Below, piece by piece: positions 384-11,213 of a stretch of DNA of 64,000 bases. This DNA is from Chryseobacterium sp. C-71 (GTDB lineage: Bacteria; Bacteroidota; Bacteroidia; Flavobacteriales; Weeksellaceae), in the NCBI RefSeq assembly GCF_020911865.1, contig NZ_CP087131.1, positions 496,001 to 560,000 on the forward strand, given 5' to 3'. The number at the start of each line of letters is the position of its first letter. The stretch's first letter is position 1. The notes below the pieces were generated by a model. The model searched no databases. It was not told where the DNA came from and saw only the letters and a list, made by a program, of their open reading frames with translations. Position numbers and translations under genes: made by a program.

Positions 384-1478
384 TTATAAACTCCCTTTTG
401 TTGATGGTAAATTATAGTTTTGATCAGTTTGATTAACTGCCATTTTTATCGCTTTTGCAAAAGCTTTAAAGATTGATTCAATCTTATGATGCTCGTTTTC
501 ACCCTCAGATTTAATATTTAAATTGCATTTTGCAGCATCTGTAAAGGATTTAAAAAAGTGATAAAACATTTCTGTCGGAACATCGCCAATTTTTTCTCTT
601 TTAAAATCAGCATCCCATACCAACCAAGGCCGCCCGCCAAAATCAATCGCCACTTGAGACAGACAATCGTCCATCGGAAGTAGAAAACCATATCTTTCAA
701 TTCCTTTCTTCTTACCTAAAGCTTGTAAAACTGCCTTTCCAAAAACAATTCCGGTATCTTCAATCGTGTGGTGTTCGTCAACCTGCAAATCTCCGTTTAC
801 TTTAATTTTTAAATTTAAATTCCCGTGTTTCGAAATTTGTTCGAGCATGTGATCAAAAAAATGTAAACCAGTTGAGATTTCAGAATTTCCGTTACCGTCA
901 AGATTAACTTCAACTTCAATCTCGGTTTCATTGGTCTTTCTATAGACTTTAGCTTTTCGTGGAATTTGCCTTAAATATTGATAGATTTCATTCCAGTTTC
1001 TCGTCGTCAATTCCGCATTTTCATTTTCAACTTCACTGATGAGGATGGCTTTTGAACCTAAATTTTTAGCTAACTGAATATCGGTCAGCCTGTCTCCAAT
1101 CACAAAGGAATTTTTCAAGTCGTAATTCCCGTAAACATATTTCCCCAACATTCCGATTTCAGGTTTTCTATTGGGCGAATTTTCATGCTCAAAACTTTTA
1201 TCAATCAGAATGTCGCCGAAAACAATTCCCTCATTTTCAAAAGTTAGCAGCATTTTCTCCTGCGGTTTTATAAAATCTTCAAACGGAAAACTATCTGTTC
1301 CCAAACCATCCTGATTGGTTACTATCACCAGTTCGTAGTCGAATTCCTTTGCTATTTTAGATAAATTTTGAAAAATTCCCGGATAAAATTCAAGCTTTTC
1401 CAAAGAATCAACCTGAAAATCTGTTGATGGCTCAATGATTAAAGTTCCGTCGCGATCGATGAATAATACTTTTTTCAT
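384..1478 (-). CDS. hisB: Bifunctional histidinol-phosphatase / imidazoleglycerol-phosphate dehydratase HisB
   Basis: Catalyses two histidine-pathway steps: dehydration of imidazole glycerol phosphate and dephosphorylation of histidinol phosphate. Residues 1-165 are a HAD phosphatase domain with FIDRDGTLI (nucleophile Asp8), VTNQDGLG and [14 protein letters not shown]. Residues about 178-364 are the dehydratase with the metal-binding [18 protein letters not shown] and HHKIE motifs. The length of 364 fits the fused form. One oddity is that the loop that in E. coli HisB binds zinc through cysteines reads [12 protein letters not shown] here, with no Cys. Spacing to hisC is one base. Confidence 0.96.
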
Positions 1479-1479
1479 T

Positions 1480-2508
1480 TTAAATATTTTTTAAAGTATT
1501 GATTAAAAGTTCATTTTCATTTCTATTTCCGACATTGATTCTGATGCAGTTGGGAATCTGAGGAAATCTTTTGCTGGTCAGAATTTCATTTTCAAGTAAT
1601 TTTTCATAAACTTTTTCTCCTTCTGTAAATTCAATCAGAAAAAAATTAGCATCCGTGGGATATACTTTCGTAACACATACTATGTTTTTAAGCTGATCTT
1701 TTAACCAATCTCTTTCTTTCAAAATTTCATTCAAATTATTTTGAAAATCTTCGACCTGATCCAATTTTTCTAAAACTAAATTCTGACTCAAAATATTGAC
1801 ATTGTAAGGCGATTTGACCGTGTAGATAAAATTAGTGATTTCTACCGATGAGTAAGCAATTCCCACTCTTGCTCCGGCCAAACCCCAAGCTTTTGAGAAT
1901 GTTTGCAAAACAATCAGATTGGGATATTCATTGATTAATTCAAGACTAGATTTTTGTTCTGAAAACTCAATATACGCTTCGTCCACAACCACAATTCCGT
2001 TAAAATTTCGGATGTAAAATTCAATGTCCTCGATTGAATTTCCTGTTGGATTGTTAGGTGAACATAGAAATAATATTTTAGGTTGATTTTCTTTTATTAT
2101 ATTTAAAAAATCTTCCTTTACAATTTCAAAATTTTCATTGAGATTGAGCTGCAAAACTTTATTTTCATTGATTGCTGCATAAAATCCATACATCGCAAAA
2201 GATGGATTCATAACCAAAACAGAATCTTTTTTTGGTTCGCAGAAAATCTTTATAATCAAATCGATCAATTCATCACTTCCGTTTCCGATGGCAATCTGAC
2301 TGGCTGAAATGTTTTTAAAAGCCGATATTTTTTCTCTTAGATTCTTGTGCGTAGAATCCGGATAGCGATTAAATTCACCAAACGGACTTTCGTTCGCATC
2401 CATCAATAAAGGATTTTCAAATGCATTATTATCTCTAAAACTGATGTAAGGTCTTAATTCTGAAATATTTTTTCTAACTAATTTTTGAATATCTATTGTT
2501 GTCATCAT
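1480..2508 (-). CDS. hisC: Histidinol-phosphate aminotransferase HisC
   Basis: A PLP-dependent class I/II aminotransferase that converts imidazole acetol phosphate to histidinol phosphate with glutamate as amino donor. Visible motifs are ANESPFG near the N-terminus, [10 protein letters not shown] (cofactor phosphate region), [17 protein letters not shown] (Asp that binds the PLP ring nitrogen) and [15 protein letters not shown], which carries the Schiff-base lysine near residue 205. At 342 residues it has the usual length. The start is two consecutive ATG codons, so the first residue is uncertain by one. One base separates it from hisD on the right and from hisB on the left, so translational coupling is likely. 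Confidence 0.96.
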
Positions 2509-2509
2509 C

Positions 2510-3784
2510 TTATTTTAATCTAATGGATACTGCATTTTTGTGGGCTAAAAGACCTTCTGCTTCCGCCATGAGTTCAATCGTTTTTCCTAAATTCTCTAAT
2601 CCTTTTTTCGAAAGATTTTGAAACGTAATTTTCTTCACGAAACTGTCTAATGAAACTCCGCTGTAATTTTTGGCAAAACCATTGGTGGGAAGTGTGTGAT
2701 TTGTTCCGCTGGCGTAATCTCCGGCACTTTCACACGAATAATTTCCAAGAAATACCGAACCTGCATTTTGAATTTGCTCAATATAATTTTCAAATTGATC
2801 AACCGCTAAAATCAAATGTTCTGGTGCATACAGATTGCTGAATTCTAATGCTTCATCCACAGAATCCAGCAAAATAAAATGGCTATTGTTTAAAGATTGC
2901 TGAGCAAATTCATTTCTGGGAAGTTCTTTGATTTGCTTTTTAACTTCATCAATCGTTTCATTTAAAACATTCAAATCTGTAGATATAAAAATCACCTGAC
3001 TGTCGCTTCCATGCTCAGCTTGTGACAATAAATCTGCAGCACAATACTCAGGAACAGTATTTTCATCAGCGATGACCAAAACTTCACTTGGCCCTGCAGG
3101 CATATCGATGGCCACCCCAAAATTCTGAGTGAAATCTTTTGCCGCAACGACAAACTGATTACCCGGACCGAAAATTTTATAGACATTCGGAATGGTTTCT
3201 GTACCAAACGTCATTGCTGCAACTGCTTGCGCTCCGCCTACTTTGAATATTTTTGAAATCCCGCAAAGCTGTGCTGCATACAAAATTGCAGGATTTATAT
3301 TTCCATTCTGATCTGGTGGTGTACACAAAATAATCTCTTTGCAACCCGCTAATTGTGCCGGAATTGCAAGCATTAAAACTGTAGAAAATAGAGGTGCCGT
3401 TCCACCAGGAATGTAGATTCCCACCTTTTCGATTGCACGGTTTTCTCTCCAGCAAATGACCCCTTTTGTAGTCTCAATTTTCTGAATTTCACTTTTCTGA
3501 GAAGCATGAAATTTTGTAATATTCTCTTTCGCTGTCTGAATGGCCAGTTTTAAATCTTCCGAAATTAAATTTTCCGCTTGATCAGTTTCGTTTGGAGTTA
3601 CTTGTAACTGATTAATTGTTGCAGAATCAAATTTTTCAGCATACTTAATTAACGCCTGATCACCATTTTTCTCAACTTCAGCGAAGATTTCTTTGATGAT
3701 TTCTGAAATTTCCTGCTTTTTAAAAATCGGTCTCTTTGTAAGTTCAAACCAGGTTTCTCTTTTTGGATTTTTGTAAATATTCAT
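2510..3784 (-). CDS. hisD: Histidinol dehydrogenase HisD
   Basis: A zinc-dependent enzyme that oxidises histidinol to histidine in two NAD-linked steps, the last reactions of the pathway. Recognisable segments are YIPGGTAPLFSTVLM, GGAQAVAAMTFGTE, IFGPGNQFVVAAK, DMPAGPSEVLVIAD, LLSQAEHGSDSQ (zinc and catalytic His/Gln/Glu region) and ASGTNHTLPTNG. At 424 residues it is full length. The start ATG is one base from the hisG stop, and its stop is one base from hisC. The five his genes are packed at one-base intervals, as in a single transcript. Confidence 0.97.
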   Translation of the reverse strand: MNIYKNPKRETWFELTKRPIFKKQEISEIIKEIFAEVEKNGDQALIKYAEKFDSATINQLQVTPNETDQAENLISEDLKLAIQTAKENITKFHASQKSEIQKIETTKGVICWRENRAIEKVGIYIPGGTAPLFSTVLMLAIPAQLAGCKEIILCTPPDQNGNINPAILYAAQLCGISKIFKVGGAQAVAAMTFGTETIPNVYKIFGPGNQFVVAAKDFTQNFGVAIDMPAGPSEVLVIADENTVPEYCAADLLSQAEHGSDSQVIFISTDLNVLNETIDEVKKQIKELPRNEFAQQSLNNSHFILLDSVDEALEFSNLYAPEHLILAVDQFENYIEQIQNAGSVFLGNYSCESAGDYASGTNHTLPTNGFAKNYSGVSLDSFVKKITFQNLSKKGLENLGKTIELMAEAEGLLAHKNAVSIRLK

Positions 3785-3785
3785 C

Positions 3786-4643
3786 TTAAATAACCATTTT
3801 ATCGATTGGAATGATTAAAATATCCTGCGCACCTTTCAGTTTTAATTCATCAATGACGTCCCAAAACCGTTCTTCATCAATAACTGAATGAATGCTGCTC
3901 CAACCCTCTTCAGCAAGCGGAATCACCGTCGGACTTTTTAAAACAGGAAGCACATCAGAGATTTCTGAAATCTTATTATTTGGGACATTCATTAAAATAT
4001 ATTTAGAATTTTTCGCCTTTAAAACCGCTTTAATTCTGAAAAGCAACTTATCTAAAATTTCTTCCTGAGAAGAATTCAGATTAATATTTTTTGCTAACAC
4101 GGCTTCTGACTTTAACAGCGTTACGGTTTCACGCAGTCCGTTTTTGAATAAAGTGCTTCCAGAGCTCACGATATCGCAGATTCCGTCTGCAAGTCCGATG
4201 TTCGGAGCAATTTCTACAGAACCTGAAATCACGTGAATATCTGCCTGAATACCGTTTTCGGTCAAATACTTTTTGAGGGTGTTGGGATAAGATGTAGCAA
4301 TCTTTTTTCCTTGAAAATATAGCGGTTGATCAGTATCTACATCTTTAGGAATCGCTAAAGAAACACGACATTTTGAGAAACCTAATTTCTGTACAATCTC
4401 ATTTTGCTTCTGTTTTTCTGCCAATAGATTTTCACCAACAATCGCAATGTCTACTACTCCATCTTCCAGATATTGCGGAATATCGGAGTTTCTGAGATAC
4501 ATAATTTCCAACGGAAAATTATCTACCAAAACCTTCAGCTGATCTTTACCGTTGTTTACAGAAATGCCACAATCTTTGAGAAGTTGAAGAGATTCTTCGT
4601 ACAACCGACCGTTTTTCTGAATAGCAATTTTTAATTTACTCAT
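3786..4643 (-). CDS. hisG: ATP phosphoribosyltransferase HisG (long form)
   Basis: The committed first step of histidine synthesis, joining ATP and PRPP. The N-terminal catalytic region starts KLKIAIQKNGRLYEES and includes VDIAIVGENLL. The PRPP-binding loop lies in DIVSSGSTLFKNGL near residue 170. Residues about 215-285 form the extra C-terminal ACT/PII-like domain (NVPNNKISEISDVLP, GAQDILIIPIDKM). The length of 285 therefore identifies the long homohexameric form, known to be inhibited by histidine and not to need HisZ. It is the first structural gene of the operon, downstream of the attenuator, so it is probably controlled both by feedback and by transcription attenuation. Confidence 0.96.
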   Translation of the reverse strand: MSKLKIAIQKNGRLYEESLQLLKDCGISVNNGKDQLKVLVDNFPLEIMYLRNSDIPQYLEDGVVDIAIVGENLLAEKQKQNEIVQKLGFSKCRVSLAIPKDVDTDQPLYFQGKKIATSYPNTLKKYLTENGIQADIHVISGSVEIAPNIGLADGICDIVSSGSTLFKNGLRETVTLLKSEAVLAKNINLNSSQEEILDKLLFRIKAVLKAKNSKYILMNVPNNKISEISDVLPVLKSPTVIPLAEEGWSSIHSVIDEERFWDVIDELKLKGAQDILIIPIDKMVI

Positions 4644-4712
4644 TACTTTTTTATAAGTTTTAGTCTGAGTAAATGAAGTTGATTTATAAAAATTTCACAG
4701 AAATGTGGAAAC

Positions 4713-4743
4713 AAAAAAAACCGTTCTTACTCAGACGGTTTTT
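4713..4743 (-). terminator. his operon attenuator (intrinsic terminator)
   Basis: On the minus strand, arms AAAAACCGT (4743-4735) and ACGGTTTTT (4724-4716) form a 9-bp stem with a 10-base loop, followed by an unbroken run of eight T. It lies between hisL and hisG, 69 bases before the hisG start. A competing pairing is visible: AGGCGG, directly after the hisL stop region (4789-4784), can pair with CCGUCU (4738-4733) in the 5' arm and would break the terminator. A ribosome that reaches the hisL stop would cover AGGCGG and let the terminator form. A ribosome stalled on the His codons would leave it free. Confidence 0.9.
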
Positions 4744-4788
4744 AATTTATTTTTATGAATTCAACACAAAATATCAATCACTTCCGCC

Positions 4789-4836
4789 TTAGCTGAGATG
4801 ATGATAATGATGAAGTGTTGAGAAATTCGGTTTCAT
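4789..4836 (-). CDS. hisL: Histidine leader peptide HisL
   Basis: A 15-codon ORF reading MKPNFSTLHHYHHLS then TAA. Four of its five residues 9-13 are histidine, the hallmark of a leader peptide that senses charged tRNA-His. It begins about 14 bases after the predicted transcription start and is followed by a terminator and then hisG. Two further overlapping pairings are possible in the leader RNA: UCAACAC (4821-4815) with GUGUUGA (4767-4761), and CACUUC (4817-4812) with GAAGUG (4784-4779). These could be the early hairpin. The peptide itself presumably has no function after synthesis. Confidence 0.92.
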   Translation of the reverse strand: MKPNFSTLHHYHHLS

Positions 4837-4856
4837 TTTCTTTGAATATTGTGGTA

Positions 4857-4886
4857 CAAATGTAGAACTTATTTTTAAACTGACAA
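4857..4886 (-). promoter_or_regulatory. Promoter of the his operon
   Basis: On the minus strand TTG (4886-4884) is followed by 19 bases and TACATTTG (4864-4857), matching the Bacteroidota housekeeping consensus TTG-N19-TAnnTTTG. It starts just after the stop of the glycosyltransferase gene and puts the transcription start near 4850, directly before hisL. Confidence 0.85.
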
Positions 4887-4891
4887 GAATT

Positions 4892-11139: not shown

Positions 11140-11213
11140 TGGAGAATACGGGAGTCGAACCCGTTACCTCTACACTGCCAGTGTAGCGCTCTAGCCAAAT
11201 GAGCTAATTCCCC
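11140..11213 (-). tRNA. tRNA-Ala (anticodon GGC)
   Basis: A 74-base cloverleaf. Acceptor arm GGGGAAT pairs with ATTCTCC, including the G3:U70 pair that marks alanine tRNAs. The D arm is GCTC/GAGC, the anticodon stem CTACA/TGTAG encloses the loop CTGGCAG with anticodon GGC, and the T arm ACGGG/CCCGT encloses TTCGACT. The discriminator base is A and CCA is not encoded. It reads GCC and GCU codons. Confidence 0.97.

Follow-up and report, generated by a model that had tools for sequence, protein, structure and literature searches.

A very probable ribosome-mediated histidine attenuator in Chryseobacterium and a fifth RNA element that probably adds a translational gate at hisG

How is the histidine operon of a Chryseobacterium regulated, and where does its regulatory leader end? 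We analysed a window of 64,000 nucleotides, that is, the whole stretch of DNA at C1:496001-560000, from a 4.22 Mb genome of this genus (order Flavobacteriales, class Bacteroidia). At one end of the window hisG, hisD, hisC and hisB form a nearly gapless run on the minus strand (Table 1), and an earlier note on this DNA had described a complete histidine attenuator in front of hisG. An attenuator as such is expected at this place, and the added value of the present analysis is a fifth RNA element, here called region 5, for which two alternative helices, D with the terminator hairpin and S with the hisG start, are described below. We put the probability of the whole explanation, an attenuator extended by a fifth RNA element into a two-layer gate, at roughly 0.6.

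Table 1. Leader and operon features, with positions counted from the first nucleotide of the window.
Feature	Position	Strand	Basis
hisB, bifunctional	384..1478	-	NF003937, 531.2 bits
hisC	1480..2508	-	TIGR01141, 307.7 bits
hisD	2510..3784	-	TIGR00069, 532 bits
hisG, ATP phosphoribosyltransferase	3786..4643	-	TIGR00070, 179.6 bits
TGAGTAAAT, hisG start (UG of AUG and next codons), putative helix S partner	4634..4642	-	Covariation; AUG predicted paired
Region 5, TTTACTCAGAC, predicted to pair with region 3/loop (D) or hisG start (S)	4663..4673	-	Comparison of upstream regions
Intrinsic terminator hairpin and T tract	4713..4742	-	Fold; covariation
Region 3, terminator 5' arm and loop, CCGTCTGAGTAA	4727..4738	-	Covariation
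P1 3' arm, GTGTTGAA	4760..4767	-	Covariation
GATTGATA, complementary to His codons, extends P1 without ribosome	4772..4779	-	Minimum free energy structure
Region 2, antiterminator arm CTCAGCTAAGGCGG, overlaps stop codon; core AGGCGG at 4784-4789	4784..4797	-	Pairing conservation, folding
Leader ORF, 15 codons, MKPNFSTLHHYHHLS and stop	4789..4836	-	Sequence; His-rich leader in 73/73 genus genomes
His-His-Tyr-His-His control codons	4798..4812	-	At least 3 His in 6 codons in 150/152 loci
P1 protector helix 5' arm, leader codons just upstream of His	4815..4824	-	Covariation
-7 box TACATTTG	4857..4864	-	Matches Bacteroidota TAnnTTTG
CTTGTCAG, holds TTG 19 bases upstream of -7 box	4880..4887	-	Position from sequence

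Relatives were sorted into genus, family, order and class by kinship labels, and HisG matches were obtained in 142 of 148 genus genomes, 73 of 120 family genomes, 78 of 148 order genomes and 47 of 99 class genomes, these sets overlapping. Upstream regions were compared for 73 distinct genus genomes (72 of the 142 with a HisG match and one from the family search) and, beyond the genus, for 39 loci from other genera of the family, 27 from other families and 13 from other orders. A set of 80 named loci, the best 80 by nearness of HisG, overlaps with these; 78 are labelled Chryseobacterium and the other two "Weeksellaceae bacterium", the closest among them being C. piscicola at 97%. Six of the 148 genus genomes (G021, G064, G072, G073, G079 and G134) gave no HisG match, and in G063, G065, G093 and G127 the gene is broken or split, or carries sequencing errors.

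Transcription of the leader appears to start from a promoter of the Bacteroidota kind, in which a TTG held by CTTGTCAG stands at what is presumably a -33-type element. The -7 box matches TAnnTTTG, the consensus named in PMC9723704, and such a box lies no more than 50 bases upstream of the leader ATG in all 73 genus loci. A scan for sigma-70 promoters yielded nothing above chance (3 found, 1.9 expected), as is to be expected if the promoter is of another type. The earlier note was right that a promoter is present here, but the consensus it follows is that of Bacteroidota and not the enterobacterial one. The short distance from transcription start to leader ATG, which had been called notable, turns out to be ordinary: measured from the end of the box rather than from a transcription start, it is 20 bases here and 16-21 across the genus, against a median 5' UTR of 24 bp in Flavobacterium psychrophilum (PMC9723704).

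The leader ORF, with four histidines around a tyrosine as the earlier note had described it, lies on the minus strand and is conserved in all 73 genus genomes. At least four His within six codons occurred in 1 of 774 ORFs of the window (ATG start, 8-30 codons, both strands, nested starts counted) and in 1 of 5656 ORFs in ten shuffles of the window (one strand). When at least three His within six codons are required, 150 of the 152 loci compared across the class have such a leader in front of hisG (73/73 in the genus, 38/39 in other genera of the family, 26/27 in other families and 13/13 in other orders), compared with 13/1460, 7/780, 4/540 and 2/260 shuffles for the same four groups (about 1%), which suggests that the entire class, as sampled here, has long had a His leader peptide. 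The two loci that miss it are L221 and L204; the latter, in a 0.6-Mb genome of family f16, retains hisG, and an upstream hairpin and T run persist there. Among the named loci the leader was found in all 79 with enough upstream sequence and the terminator pattern in all 80. The C-terminal residues of the leader are alike in many other genera (..HTCTQAS and similar, for example in L077, L085, L087, L092, L095, L183, L198, L233 and L237), apparently because the antiterminator arm overlaps those codons. The loci from other orders (L205-L217) have His-rich leaders, and many of them a T-tailed terminator of different sequence (often AAGGCTT..AAGCCTTTTTT) and no region 5.

A T-tailed terminator and a pairing that competes with it, both pointed out in the earlier note, are present on the minus strand. 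In the competing pairing, which includes one G-U pair, AGGCGG (4784-4789) can join CCGTCT (4733-4738, the first half of region 3). The stretch from leader to T tract folds with a z score of -2.67, and none of 200 shuffles folds as well. A simple terminator scan made no call on the minus strand, where both the sequence and the folds show the hairpin; its single call (0.1 expected) placed the inverted repeat on the plus strand. The hairpin at 4713-4743, A-rich on its 5' side and T-rich on its 3' side, is thus terminator-like on that strand as well and may end transcripts from both directions.

Comparison of the upstream regions bears out three helices. Within the genus the protector helix P1, which pairs leader codons with the linker, is paired in 95.1% of alignment cells (at most 53.6% in slid controls), with 23 two-sided cells at two pairs. 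The pairing of regions 2 and 3 (2:3), AGRCGG:CCGUCU, holds in 100% of genus cells and hardly varies, so that its conservation there is no evidence by itself; across genera it is paired in 97.4% of cells, with 11 two-sided cells, all at one pair. The terminator (3:4) was assessed in a cross-genus set of 65 loci, to which the genus contributed 24 of its 73 loci and the remaining groups 41 of 47 after removal of six near-identical ones, and is paired in 94.9% of cells with 19 two-sided cells. As 2:3 and 3:4 share region 3 they are mutually exclusive, and both are kept across genera with two-sided changes. The loss of His codons or terminator in close relatives that the earlier note had named as a refutation was thus not observed, and the conservation across Chryseobacterium that the earlier note had looked for is seen in both the codons and the pairing. 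Because of this conservation and covariation, ribosome-mediated attenuation, the reading of the earlier note, is very likely, and in our judgement transcription of the his operon is almost certainly attenuated here by way of a leader ribosome that responds specifically to histidine.

The ribosome states of the attenuator were modelled by folding 120 loci (D score of at least 20, leader no longer than 26 codons) as far as region 3 extends. When a mask stands for a ribosome on the second His codon, the mean 2:3 probability in the genus is 1.00, and it exceeds 0.5 in 73 of 73 loci; it falls to 0.19 without a ribosome and to 0.01 with a ribosome at the stop codon, the last value because the mask itself covers region 2. 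The corresponding stalled, empty and stop values are 0.99, 0.20 and 0.05 in a further 35 loci and 0.92, 0.13 and 0.02 in another 12. The modelled order is that of the textbook, off by default, off with histidine and on with a stalled ribosome. In this first layer, P1 would hide region 2 when no ribosome is present and the terminator would form; with plentiful histidyl-tRNA a ribosome at the stop codon would cover region 2, with the same result; and with scarce histidyl-tRNA a stall on HHYHH would let region 2 pair with region 3, so that RNA polymerase would read through. We infer this switch logic, for which the comparative evidence is strong.

The attenuator is not complete at its terminator, as the earlier note had it, since the conserved structure runs on to the hisG start codon and takes in region 5, which was omitted there. 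Region 5 is located between the terminator and hisG and is complementary to the terminator 5' arm and loop, GTCTGAGTAAG, with which it would form helix D. An ungapped duplex score of at least 20 was reached in 124 of 153 loci with a called terminator, compared with 3.0% of mononucleotide shuffles; three of these loci, L072, L075 and L076, are second copies of G002, G128 and G117 and are excluded from later counts. On this basis region 5 is present in 121 of the 139 loci of the order, and in 13 of the 27 outside the family, one of which (L201) passes the threshold at chance level; none of the 13 loci from other orders of the class has it. L178 is counted as lacking region 5, yet the element is visible by eye and was missed by the terminator finder because the contig is short. 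The strict region 5 pattern occurs in 79 of the 80 named loci, the remaining one being a one-base variant. Region 5 was not seen in six loci (L187, L188, L189, L194, L197 and L199) of family f3, presumably Flavobacteriaceae, and is therefore not essential.

In a MAFFT alignment of the 73 genus loci helix D is paired in 99.0% of cells, with slid controls reaching at most 44.0%. Its 8-pair core is paired in 94.7% of cells across the 65 loci of many genera (controls at most 39.3%), with two-sided changes at five of the eight pairs, 31 two-sided cells and a covariation score that none of 500 shuffles reached. In four loci (L086, L190, L231 and L237) D extends into the terminator 3' arm instead of the 5' arm, so that the constant theme appears to be the entry of region 5 into the hairpin through its loop. 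We hold it very probable, from this comparison, that helix D is real. The existence of region 5 as an element added to an attenuator of known kind is well supported by covariation across many genera; we infer its function and its direction of action from folding.

The terminator loop, GAGTAAA, is similar to ATGAGTAAA, with which hisG begins, and the GAGTAA of region 3 recurs there; the start is thus a second possible partner of region 5. In the window the resulting helix S joins ATTTACTCA to TGAGTAAAT, with the pairing TTTACTCA:TGAGTAAA. Across the 65 loci S is paired in 90.5% of cells (slid controls at most 40.5%) with 18 two-sided cells, and none of 500 shuffles reached its covariation score; the number of pairs with two-sided changes, four, is not unusual, 110 of 500 shuffles reaching it. 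Within the genus 97.0% of cells are paired, but this is hardly above shuffles. Loop, region 5 and start have changed together in several lineages, as GAGTTT, GAACTC and ATGAGTTC in L078-L081, as GAGTACA, TGTACTC and ATGAGTAC in L193, as GAGTATA, TATACTC and ATGAGTAT in L190, and as GAACA, TGTTC and ATGAACA in L223, L229 and L232. Region 5 and loop often go along with a differing beginning of hisG, the starts ATGAGTTCA, ATGAGTACT, ATGAGTATT and ATGAACAAA each coming with their own matched set. Swapping region 5 between 17 start classes lowers the complementarity from 15.2 for the own element to 12.0 for permuted ones, and none of 20000 permutations, in which kinship is ignored, matched the real assignment.

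Since ATTTACTCA...TGAGTAAAT is an inverted repeat in DNA as well, the repeats could be read as an operator for a regulator protein. We regard this as very improbable, as region 5 and the hisG ATG lie anywhere between 2 and 30 bases apart (median 16, 121 loci), and the compensatory changes, the G-U pairs and the switch of terminator arm point to RNA.

Helix S is less strictly kept than D. Genus loci in which hisG begins with ATGAGTATA or ATGAGTACA keep region 5 with only about six S pairs (for example L014, L015, L024, L027, L028 and L040), in L220, L231 and L236 D is present with S nearly absent, and the own region 5 ranks first in only five of the 17 start classes. Furthermore, hisG starts are biased to MSK, so that shared codon usage accounts for some of the S signal. 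A simpler account would accordingly keep a classical attenuator and helix D, region 5 serving to open or lock the terminator hairpin in the read-through mRNA, be it for mRNA stability, for ribosome passage or to define the fold of the 5' UTR, with the match to the hisG start a by-product of common MSK. The greater constancy of D (94.7% against 90.5% of cells), its excursions into the 3' arm in the four loci named above, where hairpin invasion through the loop is what stays constant, and the weak S signal of the genus all suit this account; it does not lead one to expect the altered regions 5 that fit hisG starts other than ATGAGTAAA, nor the outcome of the swap test, nor that the AUG is less accessible than in controls. 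On balance we find it unlikely, if still worth serious consideration.

The accessibility of the start codon was predicted by folding. Where region 5 is present, the mean probability that the hisG AUG is free is 0.01 (73 loci) and 0.04 (48 loci), compared with 0.26 in 31 loci without region 5 and 0.24 in the control ORFs, namely the 46 ATG ORFs of the window with at least 150 codons; the AUG is less than 0.1 free in 72/73 and 45/48 loci with region 5, in 11/31 without it and in 22/46 of the control ORFs. Dual control calls for an alternative structure that pairs the start region of the first gene, and such a structure is supported here, S being paired in 90.5% of cells and the AUG predicted closed. 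The comparative data support the view that the D and S pairings both exist and are under selection, and we think it likely that helix S is functional. As a local hairpin of mostly 6-12 pairs that ends just past the start codon and could form once transcribed, S might also serve as a pause hairpin, keeping RNA polymerase a short way into hisG until a ribosome has arrived, with D cancelling the pause; a start codon within the stem would, however, be blocked to the very ribosome that is awaited, and we judge such a role improbable.

Region 5 is probably a translational second gate, in which it would act as an anti-start element on the hisG start codon region (S) while the terminator 5' arm and loop, as a copy of the start sequence, would compete for it (D). 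In a leaky transcript the terminator hairpin would be intact, region 5 would stay on the hisG start and translation would be off. In an antiterminated transcript region 3 would be outside the terminator, region 5 would capture it and the hisG start would be free. The leader would in this way ask the same question twice, first of RNA polymerase and then of the ribosome, and such proofreading would rely on the order of synthesis, because region 3 is within reach of region 5 while the hisG start has yet to be transcribed.

Folding of the read-through RNA with all structures allowed and a ribosome at the stop codon placed S above 0.5 in 69/73, 31/35 and 12/12 loci. The antiterminated state was modelled as a stalled ribosome with the terminator disallowed; the window then splits between D (0.47) and S (0.52), D exceeds 0.5 in 26/73 genus loci and in 28/35 and 9/12 loci elsewhere, and the AUG is predicted free (above 0.5) in only 3/73, 9/35 and 3/12 loci. 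Energies were compared for 116 loci with a D score of at least 22. The mean ensemble energy of terminator plus S lies below that of D in 71/71 genus loci and 40/45 others, by 6.3 kcal/mol in the genus, 4.8 in the others and 3.0 in the window, and D differs from antiterminator plus S by medians of +0.9 kcal/mol in the genus and -1.6 kcal/mol in the others. D beats antiterminator plus S in 24/71 genus loci and 37/45 elsewhere, so that the latter combination is more often the stronger within the genus; L190 and L196 are predicted to form D and S at the same time. The competition looks poised, but the folding does not tell which way the gate works. The direction proposed above, off in leaky and on in antiterminated transcripts, is tentative, and we would give it slightly less than even odds. 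It is possible, though somewhat more doubtful, that the arrangement amounts to protein-free proofreading, widespread in Flavobacteriales, in which a decoy copy of the start within the terminator ensures that only truly antiterminated transcripts, and not leaked ones, are translated. If so, the anti-start strand would remember how RNA polymerase passed the terminator.

The complementarity between the terminator loop and region 5 raises one further reading, that the exposed loop of a terminated leader RNA pairs in trans with region 5 of the read-through mRNA. Each mRNA has its own copy in cis, which should win, and away from hisG the genome has TTTACTCAGAC as an exact copy just once (C1:3782364), inside a 348-codon ORF; we consider action in trans quite improbable, even more so than pausing. 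A wider trans or regulon role for region 5 was rejected, the exact 11-base search of the genome giving two copies, at hisG and in that ORF, and six for the reversed control.

Among the other amino acid operons of the genome, a trpE-like gene (L238, C1 near 4174600), which is the best match in the genome and lies below the family cut-off, is preceded by an ordinary-looking trp attenuator with a TACATTTG box, a leader MINSVNKNWWWHSNSSSGLMLLSCC holding three Trp codons and a T-tailed hairpin, and no region 5 was seen by eye in this leader. A search for ilvD gave no match in the genome, and inspection by eye of the upstream region of an aspartokinase gene gave no leader.

Histidine attenuators have been described for Proteobacteria and some Firmicutes in a 2022 survey, the main text of which contains no word beginning "Bacteroid" (PMC9413887). 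The enterobacterial his attenuator likewise has a His-rich leader upstream of hisG and alternative antiterminator and terminator structures (PMC9413887). The present locus differs from it in the Bacteroidota-type promoter, in the antiterminator arm that overlaps the leader stop codon, and in having, past the terminator, a fifth element whose sequence is the complement of the hisG start. We know of no element like region 5 in the enterobacterial his leader. A comparative survey of attenuators by Lopatovskaya et al. (2010), cited in PMC4833913, may cover Bacteroidetes. The Rfam His_leader model (RF00514) scores 25.3 bits here, below its gathering threshold of 49, although with the highest bit score and lowest E-value among the 21 hits listed; at gathering score a scan of the whole window gave nothing at the his leader, and the sole match was a tRNA gene at 11140-11213 on the minus strand.

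In Firmicutes, candidate his attenuators also combine His leader peptides with a terminator and an antiterminator, and there are attenuators that sequester the ribosome-binding site rather than end transcription (PMC9413887). Whereas Firmicutes are described there as using either termination or sequestration, here a terminator and a start-codon hairpin would share one competing strand. Closer relatives have given related hints. For F. psychrophilum there are strong clues for leader-peptide attenuation upstream of amino acid operons, together with a structured element upstream of hisG that is conserved in other Flavobacteriaceae and has no Rfam match; the account in PMC9723704, of which Table S7 and SI D9 may hold more, makes no mention of histidine codons, region 5 or start-codon pairing. 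The Bacteroides thetaiotaomicron transcriptome contains short ORFs reminiscent of leader peptides, in a paper whose main text does not contain the word "histidine" (PMC7366714). A literature search over openly readable main texts returned no account of region 5. The present analysis would turn the "structured 5' element upstream of hisG" of flavobacteria (PMC9723704) into a model whose strands are named and whose pairings can be tested by mismatches.

If region 5 gates translation, a terminator leak would be kept from becoming enzyme by base pairing alone. A combination of transcription attenuation with translational repression of read-through transcripts is known from the trp leader of Bacillus subtilis, which is controlled by TRAP. 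There a tryptophan-binding protein decides, whereas in the his leader described here, if our reading is right, the decision would fall to base pairing and the leader ribosome only.
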